Below are positions 12,735-22,667 of a stretch of DNA of 64,000 nt, piece after piece; positions within the stretch are counted from its first letter, which is position 1, and each line of letters opens with the position of its first letter. The position numbers and the translations under genes are program-made. Location of the stretch: positions 124,001 to 188,000 of the forward strand of contig NZ_FOAP01000003.1 of NCBI RefSeq assembly GCF_900109545.1. The letters run 5' to 3'. The notes under the pieces were generated by a model, which saw only the letters and a list, made by a program, of their open reading frames with translations, was not told where the DNA came from and did not search any database. This DNA is from Stigmatella aurantiaca. GTDB taxonomy: Bacteria; Myxococcota; Myxococcia; Myxococcales; Myxococcaceae.

Positions 12735-14564
12735 ATGGACGGACTGGCCCAACTGCTCTCCACCCGCAGAGAGGACCTGCTGCAGCGCATCGCGAGCAAG
12801 GCCCCGCCCGCGCGCCTGCTCGAGGCACTCCCGGCGCTGCTGGACCGGCTGCAGACCGCGCTGGAGTCCCCCGCGGAAGCCCCCGGGGAAGAAGCCCTCC
12901 CGGACCTGGCGGACGTGGACGCGGGGCCGCTGCGGGCCGGACTGAGCCTCGTCCGGGAGTGCAGCCTCGACCTGTGGGAGGAGACCGGAGGGACGGCGGA
13001 CTTTCCGACGCTGCGGAGGTTCCACCGCTTCCTGGACCAGGCGCTGGAGCAGACCCAGACGGAAGCGGAGGCCGCCACGGCGCGGCGGGTCCAGGTCGAA
13101 TCCCAGGTGCTGCTGGACACGATGCTGGCCACCGCGCCGGTGGGGCTGTGCTTCGTGAGCCCGGAGATGCGCTTCGTGCACCTCAACCACACCATCGCCG
13201 CCTTCAACGGCGTGTCCGTGGAGGAGACCGTTGGGCGCACCCTGCGCGAGGTGGTTCCGCAGATGGCCTCCGACCTCGAACCGCTCTACCGGCAGGTGCT
13301 GGAGACGGGGGAGCCCGTCCTCGACCTCGAAATGTCGGGCACGACGCCGGGCCTGGACGGCGAGCAGGGCTTCTGGCTGGTGAGCTGCTACCCGGTGAAG
13401 GACGCCCAGGGACACACCTTCCTGATGGGCTCGGTGGTGGTGGACCTCACCGAGCGCAAGCGGTCGGCGGACGCGGTGGCGCGCGACGCGGCGAAGCTGG
13501 AGGCCATTCTCCAGAGCATCCCGGACGCGGTGTACGTGGGGGACGCGCGGAACATCAAGCACGCCAATGCCCGGGCGCGCGAGCTGCTGGGCGAGGACCT
13601 GGAGGGGGTGGCGCCCCAGGAGCTGGGACGGCGCCTGACGTGCCGGGCGCCGGACACCGGCGAAGCCATCCTCCCCTCGGACGAGCCCTTCACGCGCGCC
13701 CTCGCGGGCGAGGCCTTCACGCGCGAGCTGGTGCTGTGCCACGCGCGCACGGGCAAGGACTTGTGGATGCGCATCGCGGCGGCGCCCGTGCGCATGGGCG
13801 AGCGCATCGTCAGCGCGGTGGTGGTGGCCACGGACCTGACGGAGCACCAGCAGCGCGAGAGCGAGCTGCGGCGGGCGGCGGAGTTCCGTGAGCGCTTCCT
13901 GGGCATCGTCAGCCATGACCTGCGCAACCCGCTCAACGCCATCTCCCTGTCGGCCGGGGCGCTGGTGCGCGAGGAGGGCCTGTCCGCGCGGGCGCAGAAG
14001 ACGGCCGGCCGCATCGTCCACAGCACCGAGCGGATGGGGCGGATGATCGGCGAGCTGCTGGACTTCACCCGGGGGCGGCTGGGCGGGGGCATCCCCATCA
14101 CCCGGAGGCCCGGGGACTTGCGCCCGCTGTGCCGCCACGTGCTGGACGAGCTGCGGGTGGCCCGGCCCGACCGCGAGGTGCGGCTCAAGGGCGACGGCCA
14201 GTTCCAGGGCGAGTGGGACGGGGACCGGCTGGCGCAGCTCGTGGGGAACCTGGCGAAGAACGCGCTCGACTACAGCCCTGAGGACACGCCGGTGACGGTC
14301 AGCCTGCACGACGAGGGCCACCGGGTGCGGCTGGAGGTACACAACCACGGCGAGCCCATCCCCGCGGAGATCCTCCCCGTCCTCTTCGAGCCCTTCCGCC
14401 GGGGCGTGAAGGCGGAGGACTCGAAGCCCTCCGGGCTGGGGCTGGGGCTCTTCATCGCCCGGCAGATCGCCCTGGCGCACGGGGGCACGCTGGAGGTGCG
14501 CTCGACGCGGGAGGAGGGCACGCGCTTCATCGTGTCCCTGCCCCGGGCGCTCCCGGCCACGTGA
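12735..14564 (+). CDS. PAS-domain sensor histidine kinase
   Basis: This 609-residue protein has no membrane segment and is probably cytosolic. An N-terminal helical region (1-110) resembles an RsbR-type sensor stalk. Two PAS domains follow (about 120-240 and 250-375). The HisKA box is IVSHDLRNPLNAI, with the phospho-acceptor His at about residue 394. The ATP-binding domain (about 480-605) has NLAKNALDYS as N box and SGLGLGLFIARQI as G2 box. It lies in an operon with the single-domain receiver. Its 3' end overlaps the convergent mobA gene by 38 bases. Confidence 0.93.
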   Translation: MDGLAQLLSTRREDLLQRIASKAPPARLLEALPALLDRLQTALESPAEAPGEEALPDLADVDAGPLRAGLSLVRECSLDLWEETGGTADFPTLRRFHRFLDQALEQTQTEAEAATARRVQVESQVLLDTMLATAPVGLCFVSPEMRFVHLNHTIAAFNGVSVEETVGRTLREVVPQMASDLEPLYRQVLETGEPVLDLEMSGTTPGLDGEQGFWLVSCYPVKDAQGHTFLMGSVVVDLTERKRSADAVARDAAKLEAILQSIPDAVYVGDARNIKHANARARELLGEDLEGVAPQELGRRLTCRAPDTGEAILPSDEPFTRALAGEAFTRELVLCHARTGKDLWMRIAAAPVRMGERIVSAVVVATDLTEHQQRESELRRAAEFRERFLGIVSHDLRNPLNAISLSAGALVREEGLSARAQKTAGRIVHSTERMGRMIGELLDFTRGRLGGGIPITRRPGDLRPLCRHVLDELRVARPDREVRLKGDGQFQGEWDGDRLAQLVGNLAKNALDYSPEDTPVTVSLHDEGHRVRLEVHNHGEPIPAEILPVLFEPFRRGVKAEDSKPSGLGLGLFIARQIALAHGGTLEVRSTREEGTRFIVSLPRALPAT

Positions 14565-15150
14565 GGCCGAAGCGCGCCAGGTCCTCGGGGGTGTTCACGC
14601 TCACCCGCGAGCGCAGCGGCGGATCCACGGCGCGCAGGGCCTCCTCGGGCAGGAGCCGGGCGCGGCACCCGGCGAGCAGGCCGCGCAGCGAAGGGTTGTC
14701 CCGCGCGAGGCGCTCGCCCCAAGGGGCGGCGAGCGCGGCCCGGTAGACCGCCAGCAGCGGCTCCACCCGCCCCTCCACCGTGAAGGCCACCGCGTCCACC
14801 TCGGGGCCGCGCGCCTCCATCAGCACGTGAACGGCGGCCGGGGCCACGAAGGGCATGTCGCAGGCCACCGCCATCACCCACTCCGTGCGGGCCGCGCCGA
14901 GCGCCGCGTGAACCCCTCCGGGCGCGCCCTTGCCCGGCACGGCATCCGCCACCGTGCGCAGCCCGAAGCGGGCATAGGGCTCCGGGTGGTTGGCCACCAG
15001 CAGCGTCTCCGCGAACAGCGGGGACAGCGCGAGCAGCCGCTCCAGCACCGGGCGGCCCTCGAACACGAGGAGCCCCTTGGGCACGCCCGACAGCCGCCGG
15101 GCCTGGCCGCCTGCGATCACCGCCCAGGTGACATCCGGGTATGGGCCCAT
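14527..15150 (-). CDS. mobA: Molybdenum cofactor guanylyltransferase MobA
   Basis: This enzyme joins GMP from GTP to molybdopterin to make the guanine dinucleotide cofactor used by DMSO-reductase-family enzymes. The 207-residue chain starts with the nucleotide loop VIAGGQARRLSGVPKGLL, then has VACDMPFV, the metal-binding Asp block, and ends with VSVNTPEDLARFG, all typical of MobA. It diverges from moeA across about 110 bases, and AGGAG precedes the ATG. With moeA, mobB and fdhD next door it forms a cofactor maturation block, presumably serving a formate dehydrogenase or nitrate reductase elsewhere. Confidence 0.93.
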   Translation of the reverse strand: MGPYPDVTWAVIAGGQARRLSGVPKGLLVFEGRPVLERLLALSPLFAETLLVANHPEPYARFGLRTVADAVPGKGAPGGVHAALGAARTEWVMAVACDMPFVAPAAVHVLMEARGPEVDAVAFTVEGRVEPLLAVYRAALAAPWGERLARDNPSLRGLLAGCRARLLPEEALRAVDPPLRSRVSVNTPEDLARFGLTWPGAPGAGTR

Positions 15151-15259
15151 GGCTCCACGCTCCTTCCGGTGGGGTCCTGTCTGTCCAGCAGGCCACCCCA
15201 CCTTTGGGATAGGATTGCCTGCCTGAGGCCCCGTGGGAAGCGCGGGCCTCCGGCCCTTC

Positions 15260-16498
15260 ATGCCCTTGATCTCCCTCGCCACGGCGAGACAGGCCGTGCT
15301 CGACGCCCTCCGCCCCGCGCCCGCCGAGGCGGTGCCCCTGCTGCACGCCCACGGCCGCTTCCTGGCCGCCGCGGTGAGCGCCTCGCGCTCGCTGCCCGGG
15401 TGCGACAACTCCGCGATGGATGGCTGGGCGGTTCGGGCCCAGGAGACCCAGGGCGCCACCCGGGGCCACCCCGTGCGCCTGCGCATCGTGGACACGGTGT
15501 ACGCCGGGGCCCTGCCCTCGCGCGCGCTCCAGCCGGGAGAGGCCGCGCGCATCTTCACCGGAGCGCCCCTGCCTGCCGGGGCCGATGCCGTCGTCCGCCA
15601 GGAGGCCGCCCGGGCCGAGGAGAACGGACAGGTCTCCCTCTTCATCACCGTGCCGCCGGGCCATGACATCCGCCGCGCCGGGGAGGAAGTCCAGGAGGGC
15701 ACGCCGCTGTTTCCCGCGGGCCAGCGCGTGGAGCCCGCGGTGCTGGGGGTGCTCGCCTCGCTGGGAGAGGCCACGGCGCGCGTCCGGCCCGCGCCGCTCG
15801 TGGCCGTGCTCGCCACGGGGGATGAGCTCATTGCCCCCGGCCAACCCGCGCAGCCGCACCAGGTGTACGAGAGCAACCTGCTCCTCATGGCGGCCCTGGC
15901 GCGCGAGGCCGGGGCGGAGGTGCGCTCCACCGGGCGGGCCCGGGACGACGACGCGGAATTGCGCGCGGCGGTGACGCGGCTGGCCTCCGAGGCCAGCGTG
16001 CTCATCACCACGGGAGGGGCCTCCGTGGGAGACAAGGACCGGGTGAAGGGCACCCTGGCGGCCCTGGGGGCGCGCTTCCTCGTGGACGGGGTGGCGCTCA
16101 AGCCGGGCAAGCCGGTGGCGGTGGCGCAGCTCGGGGACACGGTGGTCATCGTCCTGCCGGGCAATCCCGGGGCGGCCACCGTGGCGTGGGATCAGCTCGG
16201 GCGGCCCGTGCTGCTCAAGCTCCAGGGCGTGCACGAGGAGCGGCGGCGCCTGAGCGCCCGGCTCACGGAAGGCCGCCACAAGCAGGCGGGGCTCACCTAC
16301 CTGATCAGCGCCCAGGTGGAGCAGCGGCCGGACGGCGCATGGGCGCGGCTGCGGCCCCAGGGGGCGGGGCAGATTCTCCAGAACGTGGGGGCCGAGGGCT
16401 ACGCGGTGCTCCCGCCGGGACGGGCGGACTTCGCCGAGGGAGACGCGGTGGAGGTGGAGCTGTTCGACCGGCCCCGGTACGTGGCGGCCGAGCCATGA
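15260..16498 (+). CDS. moeA: Molybdopterin molybdenumtransferase MoeA
   Basis: MoeA inserts molybdate into adenylated molybdopterin. The 412-residue protein has the family blocks LPGCDNSAMDGWAV, IFTGAPLPAGADAV, ATGDEL and TTGGASVGDKD, followed by VALKPGKPVAVA and LPGNPGAATVAWD. The start at MPLISLATA fits the family N-terminus; a GTG at 15233 preceded by GAGG is an alternative. The stop overlaps the mobB ATG as ATGA, so the genes are translationally coupled. Confidence 0.95.
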   Translation: MPLISLATARQAVLDALRPAPAEAVPLLHAHGRFLAAAVSASRSLPGCDNSAMDGWAVRAQETQGATRGHPVRLRIVDTVYAGALPSRALQPGEAARIFTGAPLPAGADAVVRQEAARAEENGQVSLFITVPPGHDIRRAGEEVQEGTPLFPAGQRVEPAVLGVLASLGEATARVRPAPLVAVLATGDELIAPGQPAQPHQVYESNLLLMAALAREAGAEVRSTGRARDDDAELRAAVTRLASEASVLITTGGASVGDKDRVKGTLAALGARFLVDGVALKPGKPVAVAQLGDTVVIVLPGNPGAATVAWDQLGRPVLLKLQGVHEERRRLSARLTEGRHKQAGLTYLISAQVEQRPDGAWARLRPQGAGQILQNVGAEGYAVLPPGRADFAEGDAVEVELFDRPRYVAAEP

Positions 16499-17025
16499 GG
16501 GCCCCCCCGGCGGTGAGCATCATGGGCGGCTCGGGCATGGGGAAGACCACGTTGGTGGAGCGGTTGCTGCCAGAACTCCGGGCGCAGGGCTTGCGCGTGG
16601 GGGTGGTGAAACACTCCTCGGATCCGCACCCCCTGCACCGGGAGAACAGCGACACGGCCCGCTTCGAGCGGGCGGAAGCGGCCTTCGTGGCCTTCGCCAC
16701 CCCGGCGGGGGTGCAGCTCACGGTGCGCGAGCCACCGTCGAGCGCCTTGCTGCCCCTGTTGGAGCGCTTCGGGGACACGGTGGATCTGGTACTGGTGGAG
16801 GGCTGGAAGAACGGGCCCCTGCCCAAGCTGGAAGTGTGGCGCGAGGGGCAGGGCCCCCTGCTGGCGGCCGGGCGGCCGGAGGTGGTGGCCATCGTCACGG
16901 ATGCCCCGGTGCTCCCGGAAGGGGCGCCTCAGGGGGCGAGACGGTTTGGCCTGGAGGATGTGCAGGGGCTGGCGGTGTTCATCGCGCGATGGGCGCGAGA
17001 GAGGACTCAAGTTGAGCGACAATAA
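16495..17025 (+). CDS. mobB: MobB, molybdopterin-guanine dinucleotide adapter
   Basis: This 176-residue P-loop GTPase supports MobA in forming the guanine dinucleotide cofactor. Walker A is GGSGMGKTTL at the N-terminus. VGVVKHSSDPH and LVEGWKNGPLPKLEV are the usual MobB blocks, while FVAFATPAGVQL is the sheet region. It starts inside the moeA stop and overlaps fdhD by 14 bases, so moeA, mobB and fdhD form one operon. Confidence 0.93.
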   Translation: MRAPPAVSIMGGSGMGKTTLVERLLPELRAQGLRVGVVKHSSDPHPLHRENSDTARFERAEAAFVAFATPAGVQLTVREPPSSALLPLLERFGDTVDLVLVEGWKNGPLPKLEVWREGQGPLLAAGRPEVVAIVTDAPVLPEGAPQGARRFGLEDVQGLAVFIARWARERTQVERQ

Positions 17026-17887
17026 AGGCGTCACCCAGCGGAAGGTGATGCGGTTCGCGTCGGGGAAGGCAACGCCCTCGGAGCTGGACGCGGTGGCGGT
17101 GGAGGAGCCGCTGGAGATCCGCGTGAGCGGGGACACGGTGGCCATCACGATGCGGACACCGGGACAGGACCGCGAGCTGGCGGCGGGCTTCCTCTTCTCC
17201 GAGGGCATCATCCGCTCCTCGGACGACCTGGGAGGGCTCGCGCACTGCGGCCATCCTGGAAAAGAGGGATGGGGCAACATCATCGAGGTGACGCCCGCGC
17301 CGGGGCTGGTGCTGGACATCGAAAAGGTGAGCGCCTCACGGCGCGGAACGCTGACGACGTCGGCGTGTGGCGTCTGCGGAAGGCGCAGCGTGGACGACCT
17401 GATGGCGATCTGCATGCCGGTGCCACCGGGAGCGGCGCTCTCGCCCAAGGTGGTGGCCCGGGCCACGGACCGGCTGAAAGAGGTTCAACTCAACTTCGCG
17501 CGCACGGGCGGCATGCACGCGGCGGCGGCGCTCGACGCGAAGGGAGAGCTGCTGGCGGCAGCCGAGGACGTGGGGCGGCACAACGCGGTGGACAAGGTGG
17601 TGGGAGACCTGGTGCTGGAGGGCGTGGTGCGCTCCGCGCGAGCGCCCACGCCCCTGGTGCATCCCAGCCTCAAGCATCAACCGTGGGTGCTGGTGGTGAG
17701 CGGACGGGCGAGCTTCGAAATCGTGCAGAAGGCGGCGATGGCGAAGATTCCAGTCGTGGCCAGCGTGTCCGCGGCGAGCTCACTGGCGGTGGACCTGGCG
17801 GAGCGCTCCGGGATTACACTCGCCACGTTCGTGAGAAACGGACGCTTCAACATCTACACGCATCCTGCCCGCCTGGGGGTGGAGTAA
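17012..17887 (+). CDS. fdhD: Formate dehydrogenase sulfurtransferase FdhD
   Basis: FdhD moves sulfur from a cysteine desulfurase to the molybdenum cofactor, which formate dehydrogenases need. The 291-residue protein shows EEPLEIRVSG, GFLFSEGII, the catalytic TTSACGVCGRR with the Cys-x-x-Cys pair, GGMHAAAALD, EDVGRHNAVDKV and VSGRASFEIVQKA. The start is a TTG preceded by AGAGGA at good spacing; longer frames run back into mobB. The cluster implies a bis-MGD formate dehydrogenase elsewhere in the genome. Confidence 0.94.
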   Translation: MSDNKGVTQRKVMRFASGKATPSELDAVAVEEPLEIRVSGDTVAITMRTPGQDRELAAGFLFSEGIIRSSDDLGGLAHCGHPGKEGWGNIIEVTPAPGLVLDIEKVSASRRGTLTTSACGVCGRRSVDDLMAICMPVPPGAALSPKVVARATDRLKEVQLNFARTGGMHAAAALDAKGELLAAAEDVGRHNAVDKVVGDLVLEGVVRSARAPTPLVHPSLKHQPWVLVVSGRASFEIVQKAAMAKIPVVASVSAASSLAVDLAERSGITLATFVRNGRFNIYTHPARLGVE

Positions 17888-17895
17888 ACCGAGCG

Positions 17896-18462
17896 ATGGG
17901 ATTCACCGAATACCTCGACCAGGTGAAGGCCGAAGCGGAAGGAGACGCCTTCTTCCGCCTCCTCAAATCTCAGCTGGCCGCGGGGCACCGAGTGCAGAAG
18001 GTGTCGTTCGTTCCCGCCGAGGGGGGACACCCTCCACGATATCGGTTCCTCCTGGCCCGGATGGGGACCTTGAGCACGCTCGATGTGCCCGCGGGGCAGG
18101 AAGCCATCGAGCACCTCTTGGCGGAGACGCATCAACAGCTCGCCTCACGAGACGATGAAGTGCAGCGCTGCCAGGTGCGGCTGAAGCAAGAAACCGAGGC
18201 ACTGACCCGGCTCCTGGGGCGGGACGCCACGAGGGAAGCAGTGGCCAGCGTCACCCGTGAGCTGGGGGGCCCACAGTCTCTCCGGCTCACCCTGCCCGCC
18301 TCAAGAACGGGTCTCTCACCTGCAGCGAGGCTGGCAGCGGAACGGCTACGGCGCGAATTCGACCAGAACGTGCGCAACCTCTACATCGAGCGAGGCTACC
18401 CACTCGCGGAGGCGGGCCACATCGTGGACGAAGCGCTGGCGCGGCTCATCGAAGCTGGCTGA
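17896..18462 (+). CDS. Hypothetical coiled-coil protein (188 aa)
   Basis: This protein follows fdhD by eight bases and may be the last gene of that operon. The N-terminal part (1-80) is globular. A charged helical stretch rich in Glu, Gln and Arg (about 80-120) looks like a coiled coil, and the C-terminus has NVRNLYIERGYPLAEAGHI. There is no signal peptide or metal motif. A link to molybdenum enzymes is suggested only by position. Its 3' end overlaps the convergent TOPRIM gene by 17 bases. Confidence 0.7.
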   Translation: MGFTEYLDQVKAEAEGDAFFRLLKSQLAAGHRVQKVSFVPAEGGHPPRYRFLLARMGTLSTLDVPAGQEAIEHLLAETHQQLASRDDEVQRCQVRLKQETEALTRLLGRDATREAVASVTRELGGPQSLRLTLPASRTGLSPAARLAAERLRREFDQNVRNLYIERGYPLAEAGHIVDEALARLIEAG

Positions 18463-19045
18463 GGAACGCAGCGAAGCTCGGGCTCTTGCTCGCCAGAGCT
18501 TCCACGTTGACCGACTCGGCAAGGGGAAGGGCCGCTTGCCGCATGGTCGCGCGATCCGGACGCTCGACCCCGTAGAGCAACTGCTTGAGCTGGACCCGGC
18601 CCGAGGGGTCACTCCCCAAGGTCTCGCCCTTCCCTTTGAAGTCATGCCCACGGGCCAGGAGCAGCCAGGTCTCAAGCGCCTGGACGGGCACGGCAAACAG
18701 GTACTTCAAGGCAGGCAGCTCAGGACGCGGCCAGGACAACGGCTCATGAATCCGGGCCGCAGCGCGCAGTTCGCAGAACCGGCAGCCCTTCAAGACCTCC
18801 CCATGAGAGGCCAGATGAGTAGGCCCTGCGCCATCGTTGTCGATGGCGAAGAGTGCCCCGTCGAGCCCCTCACGATGCGCGGCCCTGGCGATGATCGGAG
18901 CCAGCCGAAGTGCACTGGTCCATCCACCACGCGCGAAGCGGTATTGCGTCTCACTGGGCACCACTTCCGACTGAAACACCCGGGAGAGCAGGGCGCGAAA
19001 CACGTCCTCGTCGGTGTCATCCTCGACGCAGAAGGCGAACCTCAT
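18446..19045 (-). CDS. TOPRIM-like (DUF4276-type) partner of AAA ATPase
   Basis: This 199-residue protein starts MRFAFCVEDDTDEDVF, where E8 fits the TOPRIM glutamate, and has LFAIDNDGAG (D69 and D71), which fits the DxD metal-binding pair. VPVQALETWLLL later matches DUF4276-type proteins. TOPRIM folds of this kind cut or bind nucleic acid. Its ATG overlaps the ATPase stop as ATGA, so the two are made together. ATPase plus TOPRIM pairs occur in OLD-like and PARIS-like phage defence; which class this belongs to cannot be told here. Confidence 0.75.
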   Translation of the reverse strand: MRFAFCVEDDTDEDVFRALLSRVFQSEVVPSETQYRFARGGWTSALRLAPIIARAAHREGLDGALFAIDNDGAGPTHLASHGEVLKGCRFCELRAAARIHEPLSWPRPELPALKYLFAVPVQALETWLLLARGHDFKGKGETLGSDPSGRVQLKQLLYGVERPDRATMRQAALPLAESVNVEALASKSPSFAAFLSQLR

Positions 19046-20085
19046 CGGCTTGGCACGCCGCCCAGCACACCCGAGTACCAAAGTTCGCCCAGCGGCGCGC
19101 CCTTGAGTTCCTTCTCCCAATCCGGCCGGTCCGAGAGCCGGGTGATGTGCGTTCCCTGCTCGTCACGCTCGAAGATCAGGACACTCTCCGGTGAGTCCCT
19201 GAACTCGTCGAGCAGCGTGGGAGAGTGCGTCGTCAGCACGACCTGAACACCGGATTGCGTCAGGCGTAACAAGTGGTCCAGGAGTTCACGAAGCCGCCGG
19301 GGATGAATCCCTCGCTCGGGCTCCTCGATCGCGAGGATACTGGGAGTCCCCGCTTTCAATTGCGCGGCAACCGCCAGTCCGATGAAGAGCAGAAGGCCAT
19401 CTGACATGTCCTCAGCCCCGTAAACCCGCCCATCGGATTCCTCGACGCCCAGTACTTTTGTTCCAGGTTCCGGACCAAGACGGGTAATGACCCGCTTCAC
19501 CTCACGAGCGGCGCTGCGGACAACTTTATCAATCTCATCTCTCAGAGAAGGCTTCTCTCCGGACCACTTATCGAGAACCGCAGCCGTGTCGAGACCGTCT
19601 GGGCCCATGCTGGCGTCTCGATGCACCAGGGCGGGTTTCCGGAGGGAAGGAACCGACAAATCATGCACTGTGGTTGCCTTCAGGAAGAAGCCCAGCTGCT
19701 TCAGTAATTGCTCCTCCTGCTCTTGCCTCGGAAGCTCCCAATCATCGTCATCATAGTCTTCGACCTCTGTGGCGCTTTCGAGGCTGTAGCGGACGTCTCG
19801 TGCCTCGAAAAGACTGTGACTCAGAGTGGCACCCGCGAACCGCACTTTTGCATTGATGCCGAGAGGGGAATCCTCCTCCCGGCTGAGCACTGACTTCCAT
19901 CCTCCCAGCGCCTGCACTGCCGCCTCGGTGCCTTGTCGGCTCACCTCTGCCAGCAGCTTGAGCACCGCCAGAGCGTTGGACTTGCCGCTGTTGTTGGCGC
20001 CCACCATCACCGTGATGCCAGGCGCGAGCGGGATCGTCACATCGCGGAGGGTCTTGAAGTTCTTGACCTCGATCTCCGTAATCAA
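19042..20085 (-). CDS. OLD/AAA_21-type ATP-binding protein, putative defence ATPase
   Basis: This 347-residue ATPase is of the RecF/SMC-like AAA_21 group. Walker A is GANNSGKS (29-36). The signature region is AEDMSDGLLLFIGL, Walker B is ILAIEEP (250-256) and the switch His is in VLTTHSPT (H287). The middle holds an acidic insertion (EVEDYDDDDWELP). The start is a TTG with AGGAGGGG eight bases upstream, within repeat-like sequence downstream of gyrB. Base composition drops to about 55-57% GC in two 60-base blocks I counted (19681-19800), against about 73% in mobB, which suggests it arrived by transfer. It forms a two-gene unit with the TOPRIM protein. Confidence 0.85.
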   Translation of the reverse strand: MITEIEVKNFKTLRDVTIPLAPGITVMVGANNSGKSNALAVLKLLAEVSRQGTEAAVQALGGWKSVLSREEDSPLGINAKVRFAGATLSHSLFEARDVRYSLESATEVEDYDDDDWELPRQEQEEQLLKQLGFFLKATTVHDLSVPSLRKPALVHRDASMGPDGLDTAAVLDKWSGEKPSLRDEIDKVVRSAAREVKRVITRLGPEPGTKVLGVEESDGRVYGAEDMSDGLLLFIGLAVAAQLKAGTPSILAIEEPERGIHPRRLRELLDHLLRLTQSGVQVVLTTHSPTLLDEFRDSPESVLIFERDEQGTHITRLSDRPDWEKELKGAPLGELWYSGVLGGVPSR

Positions 20086-20102
20086 GCCTCACCCCTCCTC
20101 TG

Positions 20103-20127
20103 GCCCCTCTCCTCAGTGGAGAGGGGC
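20103..20127. repeat. REP-like hairpin between gyrB and the ATPase gene
   Basis: The arms GCCCCTCTCC and GGAGAGGGGC form a perfect ten-base stem with the loop TCAGT. It lies 14 bases past the gyrB stop. There is no T tract on the minus strand, so it is not a classic intrinsic terminator. Such CCCCTCTCC palindromes recur as intergenic repeats in many GC-rich genomes. The ribosome site of the ATPase gene sits right beside it. Confidence 0.6.
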
Positions 20128-20141
20128 TCTGGCCTACGGAC

Positions 20142-22667
<2,526 letters not shown>

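Follow-up and report, generated by a model that had tools for sequence, protein, structure and literature searches.

A three-gene ATPase/TOPRIM-like cassette of candidate defence type, related to HEC-01 pairs, beside gyrB in Hyalangium and beside mobA in Corallococcus

In the PARIS system, a hexamer of the AriA ATPase sequesters the TOPRIM nuclease AriB, and the binding of phage proteins to AriA releases AriB, which then dimerises and cuts tRNA (PMC12409363, PMC11455837). A split ABC-ATPase/TOPRIM pair can in this way sense phage counter-defence proteins, which raises the questions of how far this logic reaches and where in such ATPases the trigger is read. OLD (class 1) and the GajA protein of Gabija likewise bring together an ABC ATPase and a TOPRIM-type nuclease, but as single fused proteins, and Gabija also has a UvrD-like helicase. 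HEC-01, a PADLOC candidate system, is a pair of an ABC-ATPase and a DUF4276 protein, as confirmed in the genome analysed here (G000), where a DUF4276 protein scores 5.7e-69 with the PADLOC profile HEC-01B and its partner ATPase 5e-99 with HEC-01A; true ATPase + DUF4276 pairs in relatives also score as HEC-01A/HEC-01B. The G000 pair is part of a BREX locus, where PglX stands on one side of it and BrxL on the other (contig C24:41000-54000, L131, 581-11323). None of the papers in the literature set that was searched names DUF4276 or PDC-M31.

Gene layout, transcription and base composition

Within the window (i.e., the whole stretch of 64 kb that was analysed), a first-pass annotation had pointed to an ATPase gene and a TOPRIM gene at 18446-20085, overlapping by ATGA and adjoining gyrB. 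Both open reading frames, their overlap and their position next to gyrB were confirmed, but the span left out a convergent third gene without known relatives in the profile libraries searched (hereafter the orphan). The cassette comprises three genes rather than two, arranged as follows:

17885-20141: block missing in G001, the closest congener, bordered by the stop codons of gyrB and fdhD
17896-18462, plus strand: orphan third gene, 188 aa, convergent to the TOPRIM-like gene
18446-18462: tail-to-tail overlap (17 bp) of the orphan and TOPRIM-like genes
18446-19045, minus strand: TOPRIM-like gene (putative distant relative of DUF4276/HEC-01B), ATG start, 199 aa
18773-18817, minus strand: H77, H81, C88 and C91 (H-x3-H ... 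C-R-x-C), near-invariant in 15 homologues
18833-18841, minus strand: DxD motif (D69-N-D71), invariant in 15 homologues
19022-19024, minus strand: E8, with DxD the expected TOPRIM metal site, invariant in 15 homologues
19042-19045, minus strand: ATGA overlap of the ATPase stop and TOPRIM-like start
19042-20085, minus strand: ABC-type ATPase gene (AAA_21), TTG start, 347 aa
19666-19965, minus strand: hypervariable segment (residues ~41-140 of the ATPase), overlapping the low-GC block
20103-20127, minus strand: hairpin between the gyrB stop and the ATPase start, without a T-run
20142-22646, minus strand: gyrB, adjoining the ATPase gene

Every one of the four Hyalangium copies has the same 17-bp overlap of the orphan and TOPRIM-like genes, and the copy of G082 has one of 14 bp. 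Since the gap between gyrB and the ATPase gene contains only the hairpin and no terminator-like site with a T-run, read-through from gyrB into the ATPase-TOPRIM pair is likely. The orphan gene begins 8 bp downstream of fdhD (which was placed by its position in the ORF list and by DNA homology), so that read-through from fdhD is likely in this strain. Scanning for promoters and terminators, and against Rfam, gave no matches. Judged from this arrangement, the pair is probably transcribed through gyrB read-through, and the orphan, in this strain, through fdhD read-through.

The two low-GC blocks (about 55-57%) reported earlier were recovered: the lowest 200-bp windows, at ~19351-19900, have a GC content of 54.5-57% (among the 8 lowest of 2,552 positions) versus a mean of 69.8% for the entire window. 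Moreover, the GC3 of the ATPase gene (0.70) is the lowest among 41 long ORFs (median 0.92).

Relation of the encoded proteins to described systems

The ATPase was correctly read as being of the AAA_21 type (Pfam, E 9.7e-32), with Walker A (GANNSGKSN), Walker B (IEEPERGIHP) and H-loop (LTTHSP) motifs all present. HEC-01A profiles gave its top matches in PADLOC (2.2e-44) and scored above AriA (2.5e-31), which matched over the same extents as Pfam AAA_21. Against solved structures, the ATPase matched TsOLD (6p74, 4e-7) and, weakly, AriA (E 0.0014).

The small protein had a weak match to DUF4276 that covers it from end to end (E 4.9e-4; 20.8 bits, under the 30.2-bit cut-off), and it matched neither HEC-01B nor AriB in PADLOC. 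Similarly, the AriB profile and AriB PDB chain were matched neither by the small protein nor by its family profile. HEC-01B was matched by 8 of its 15 homologues (the best at only 9.5e-6), and a profile comparison with a mixed HEC-01B set (probability 63%, E 7e-5) paired the E, the acidic motif region and VP..E.W, whereas the comparison with canonical DUF4276 was weak (probability 10%, E 0.003). Next to the invariant E8 and DxD, the subfamily also keeps an ExW motif, and the H77/H81/C88/C91 quartet possibly forms a zinc site.

Structure prediction was among the checks that the first-pass annotation had proposed. In the model of the small protein (pLDDT 80.8, pTM 0.81), strand 2-7 is followed by E8 and strand 63-68 by D69xD71, which is the placement in TOPRIM domains. 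A Foldseek search of PDB and of viral libraries nevertheless gave nothing at E <= 0.001; the best (non-significant) PDB matches were Rossmann-like enzymes. Searching solved structures by sequence with the TOPRIM-like and orphan family profiles retrieved nothing. Because no fold match was significant, the putative TOPRIM identity of the protein rests on the motifs, the weak relation to DUF4276 and HEC-01B, and the ATPase partner. All members of the subfamily recovered in a genome scan belonged to Myxococcota or to unclassified Deltaproteobacteria bins, and no relatives of the TOPRIM-like protein were found in the phages, plasmids and viral contigs scanned.

With HEC-01, the cassette shares two adjacent genes encoding a HEC-01A-type ATPase and a small TOPRIM-like partner with acidic and E-x-W-like motifs, and both occur alternately at one Corallococcus site. 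However, while the ATPase scores as HEC-01A, its partner is neither recognised as HEC-01B nor as DUF4276 above the cut-off, carries the extra His/Cys quartet, and is accompanied by the convergent third gene, which the HEC-01 pair of G049 lacks. As in PARIS, the ABC-ATPase and TOPRIM-type genes are separate, and a sensor-effector logic may be proposed by analogy; the cassette differs in its third gene, in its small protein without AriB match, and in its shorter ATPase (347 vs. 464 residues in 8ux9_B), whose sequence matches AriA in PDB only weakly. An OLD identity was rejected despite the TsOLD match, as the ATPase and TOPRIM-like protein are not fused in one chain, and so was Gabija, since the pair has gyrB, fdhD and the orphan around it and no UvrD/PcrA-like helicase. 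The PADLOC candidate system PDC-M07, found at the same site beside gyrB in G004, also joins an ABC-ATPase to a small nuclease-like gene, but its ATPase belongs to another subfamily (~30% identity) and its partner is PIN-like instead of TOPRIM-like.

The earlier comparison with OLD- and PARIS-like architectures therefore survives as a link to ATPase/TOPRIM systems, but neither as OLD nor through AriB, and for the idea that the small TOPRIM protein defines another class, the nearest named kind is HEC-01, from which this protein diverges. Overall, the cassette has three genes and is a relative, albeit a divergent one, of the ATPase/TOPRIM candidate defence pairs of HEC-01 type.

Insertion sites and the third gene

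The cassette was found in four of the seven Hyalangium genomes (G000, i.e., the window genome, G002, G003 and G006), each time beside gyrB, and was absent from three of the six congeners. The closest congener is G001, whose gyrB is 98.6% identical. Here gyrB and fdhD are only 67 bp apart, whereas the window carries exactly the three cassette genes (2,257 bp) in between; DNA homology reaches 20141 (gyrB stop) and resumes from 17885 (fdhD stop). Homology with G002 spans the block and stops at 17889, just upstream of the orphan. The copy of G003 (a metagenome assembly) is damaged: its TOPRIM protein is short by ~53 residues, a gap that covers DxD and the greater part of the His/Cys quartet, and the reading frame of its ATPase gene is disrupted close to the start. 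The absence from congeners and the deviant composition contradict the refuting condition of the first-pass annotation (normal composition, and the pair in every relative at this site), and the patchy presence supports the defence-type reading first given to the locus.

At the gyrB site of G004, the PDC-M07 pair (ABC-ATPase + PIN-like; 1.5e-181 and 5.8e-57; L059 6632-8403) takes the place of the cassette, and G005 carries a broken relative of that pair. In Corallococcus, the site is the stretch between an NrfD-like gene and mobA. Nothing lies there in G055, G127 and G129, while G128 and G130 have the cassette, and G042 and G049 a HEC-01 pair, which the orphan accompanies in G042 but not in G049; the profile test was run on the G042 pair, of which the G049 pair is a close homologue. 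The cassette and other candidate defence pairs thus replace each other at both places, so that the gyrB-fdhD and the Corallococcus site are hotspots, although the cassette site does not qualify as a classical defence island. Besides gyrB in Hyalangium and mobA in Corallococcus, the cassette is flanked by other genes at three further places, in G020, G053 and G082.

A few further observations concern the surroundings. Both hotspots adjoin a cluster of molybdenum cofactor genes (mobA, moeA, mobB, fdhD; window 14527-17887; Corallococcus L123, L140-L143), but at opposite ends of it in Hyalangium and Corallococcus. In G043 (L065 4068-6845), the pair directly follows a dnaA-like gene, a replication gene like gyrB, which may be chance. 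G108 (L129 5094-8430) carries two different ABC-ATPase/TOPRIM-like pairs in tandem.

The orphan protein had no significant match in Pfam or PADLOC, and its model (pLDDT 87.2) no significant PDB fold match. Its dN/dS of 0.1-0.3 nevertheless indicates purifying selection, and therefore a real protein. Of the 195 Myxococcota genomes, 14 contain a match to its profile at E <= 1e-4 (full-length in 12), and 11 of the 12 full-length orphans lie tail to tail with the TOPRIM subfamily, at about five unrelated sites (Fisher 1.8e-13 by genome and 5.7e-6 by genus, related genomes not being independent). Conversely, 11 of 16 genomes with the TOPRIM subfamily have the orphan, so that it is not universal (lacking in G043, G052, G019, G064 and G108). 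All three genes cluster the Corallococcus strains alike (G035 with G132, and G128 with G130). The orphan is most likely a dedicated accessory that restrains or adapts the effector.

Variable segment of the ATPase and proposed mechanism

Identity among the Hyalangium ATPases is 97-100% at residues 1-40, drops to 8-14% at ~80-130 and is 80-96% from ~191 onwards, and the Corallococcus ATPases show the same profile along the protein. In the closest pair (G035/G132), dN reaches 0.316 at residues 41-155 versus 0.022 and 0.028 outside (i.e., ~11-fold up; Fisher 4e-23), while dS is similar throughout (0.23-0.35), yielding a dN/dS of 0.90 in the segment versus 0.10 outside. Since dS in the segment is not raised, recombination alone was rejected as the source of its divergence in this pair; pairs that are further apart show a rise of dS as well as dN in the segment, and exchange may contribute there. 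The first 40 codons (19966-20085) have a between-species nucleotide identity of 90-96% (vs. ~75-85% further along), in Hyalangium as well as in Corallococcus, and possibly serve as an anchor for swapping the variable segment.

This pattern is compatible with selection that changes over this region, which a trigger-binding surface would lead one to expect, and the segment is proposed to be the trigger-sensing region of the ATPase. Together with the intact ATPase and a small putative effector with metal-site residues, it provides the parts that match the PARIS logic, and we consider it fairly likely that the cassette is a divergent HEC-01-type ATPase/TOPRIM defence system working like PARIS, with an extra convergent component. 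The ATPase would assemble as a sensor keeping the TOPRIM-like protein inactive until a phage product touches the hypervariable segment, whereupon the ATPase would release or activate the TOPRIM-like protein; the latter would then cut cellular or phage RNA or DNA and stop phage growth, as AriA/AriB do, with the orphan protein restraining or adapting the effector. Counting against this reading are the small protein's sub-threshold match to DUF4276, its missing AriB match and its lack of a significant fold match, a site that does not qualify as a classical defence island, the failure to find copies in the phages, plasmids and viral contigs scanned, and the five TOPRIM-bearing genomes without the orphan. 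More tentatively, this may amount to a three-component PARIS-like system of Myxococcota, in which the ABC-ATPase would be a diversifying sensor, the nuclease a TOPRIM subfamily that bears zinc and falls outside DUF4276, AriB and OLD, and the third component a new tail-to-tail family that controls the effector or is needed for it.

The segment could instead be an unconstrained linker without recognition function, and its overall dN/dS in the closest pair, not clearly above 1, is compatible with this. We nevertheless find it rather doubtful, given the narrow range in which the length of the segment stays, a 20-codon block with a dN/dS of 4.2 (a window chosen post hoc), and a control HEC-01A pair that reached only 0.26 versus 0.12 in the C-terminal part. 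A similarly low likelihood is given to the ATPase-TOPRIM pair being the whole defence system (a divergent HEC-01), with the orphan a passenger at the end of the mobile block. The ATPase and TOPRIM genes do occur without it in G043, G052, G019 and G108, and it stands beside a HEC-01 pair in G042 while the same pair in G049 goes without; its purifying selection and its recurrent tail-to-tail position at unrelated sites, with just one full-length copy elsewhere, speak for more than a passenger.

Kept mainly for its own persistence, the locus might also be an addiction module, with a TOPRIM toxin and the ATPase and/or orphan as antitoxin. PARIS itself has been described as a toxin-antitoxin system (PMC11455837), and a small operon with a stop/start overlap and patchy presence would suit such a module, but the hypervariable segment better fits variable external triggers, and the clean absences in congeners and the damaged G003 copy show no strong addiction, making this reading improbable. 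Least plausible is a chromosomal DNA-repair or replication accessory tied to gyrase (i.e., a RecF/SMC-like ATPase with a TOPRIM partner). Although the cassette adjoins gyrB in four Hyalangium species and the G043 pair follows a dnaA-like gene, it is missing in close relatives, has homologues beside unrelated genes, deviates in GC3 and shares its site with candidate defence pairs; its patchy presence and its other sites led to rejection of a gyrase-linked housekeeping role.

This family provides natural sets of ATPases that are nearly the same outside one ~100-residue segment, so that segment swaps could directly test whether it sets trigger specificity. The cassette further adds an unnamed protein family (the orphan) and a His/Cys-bearing TOPRIM-like subfamily that escaped the profile libraries searched, as well as two myxobacterial chromosomal sites where different candidate defence pairs replace one another.
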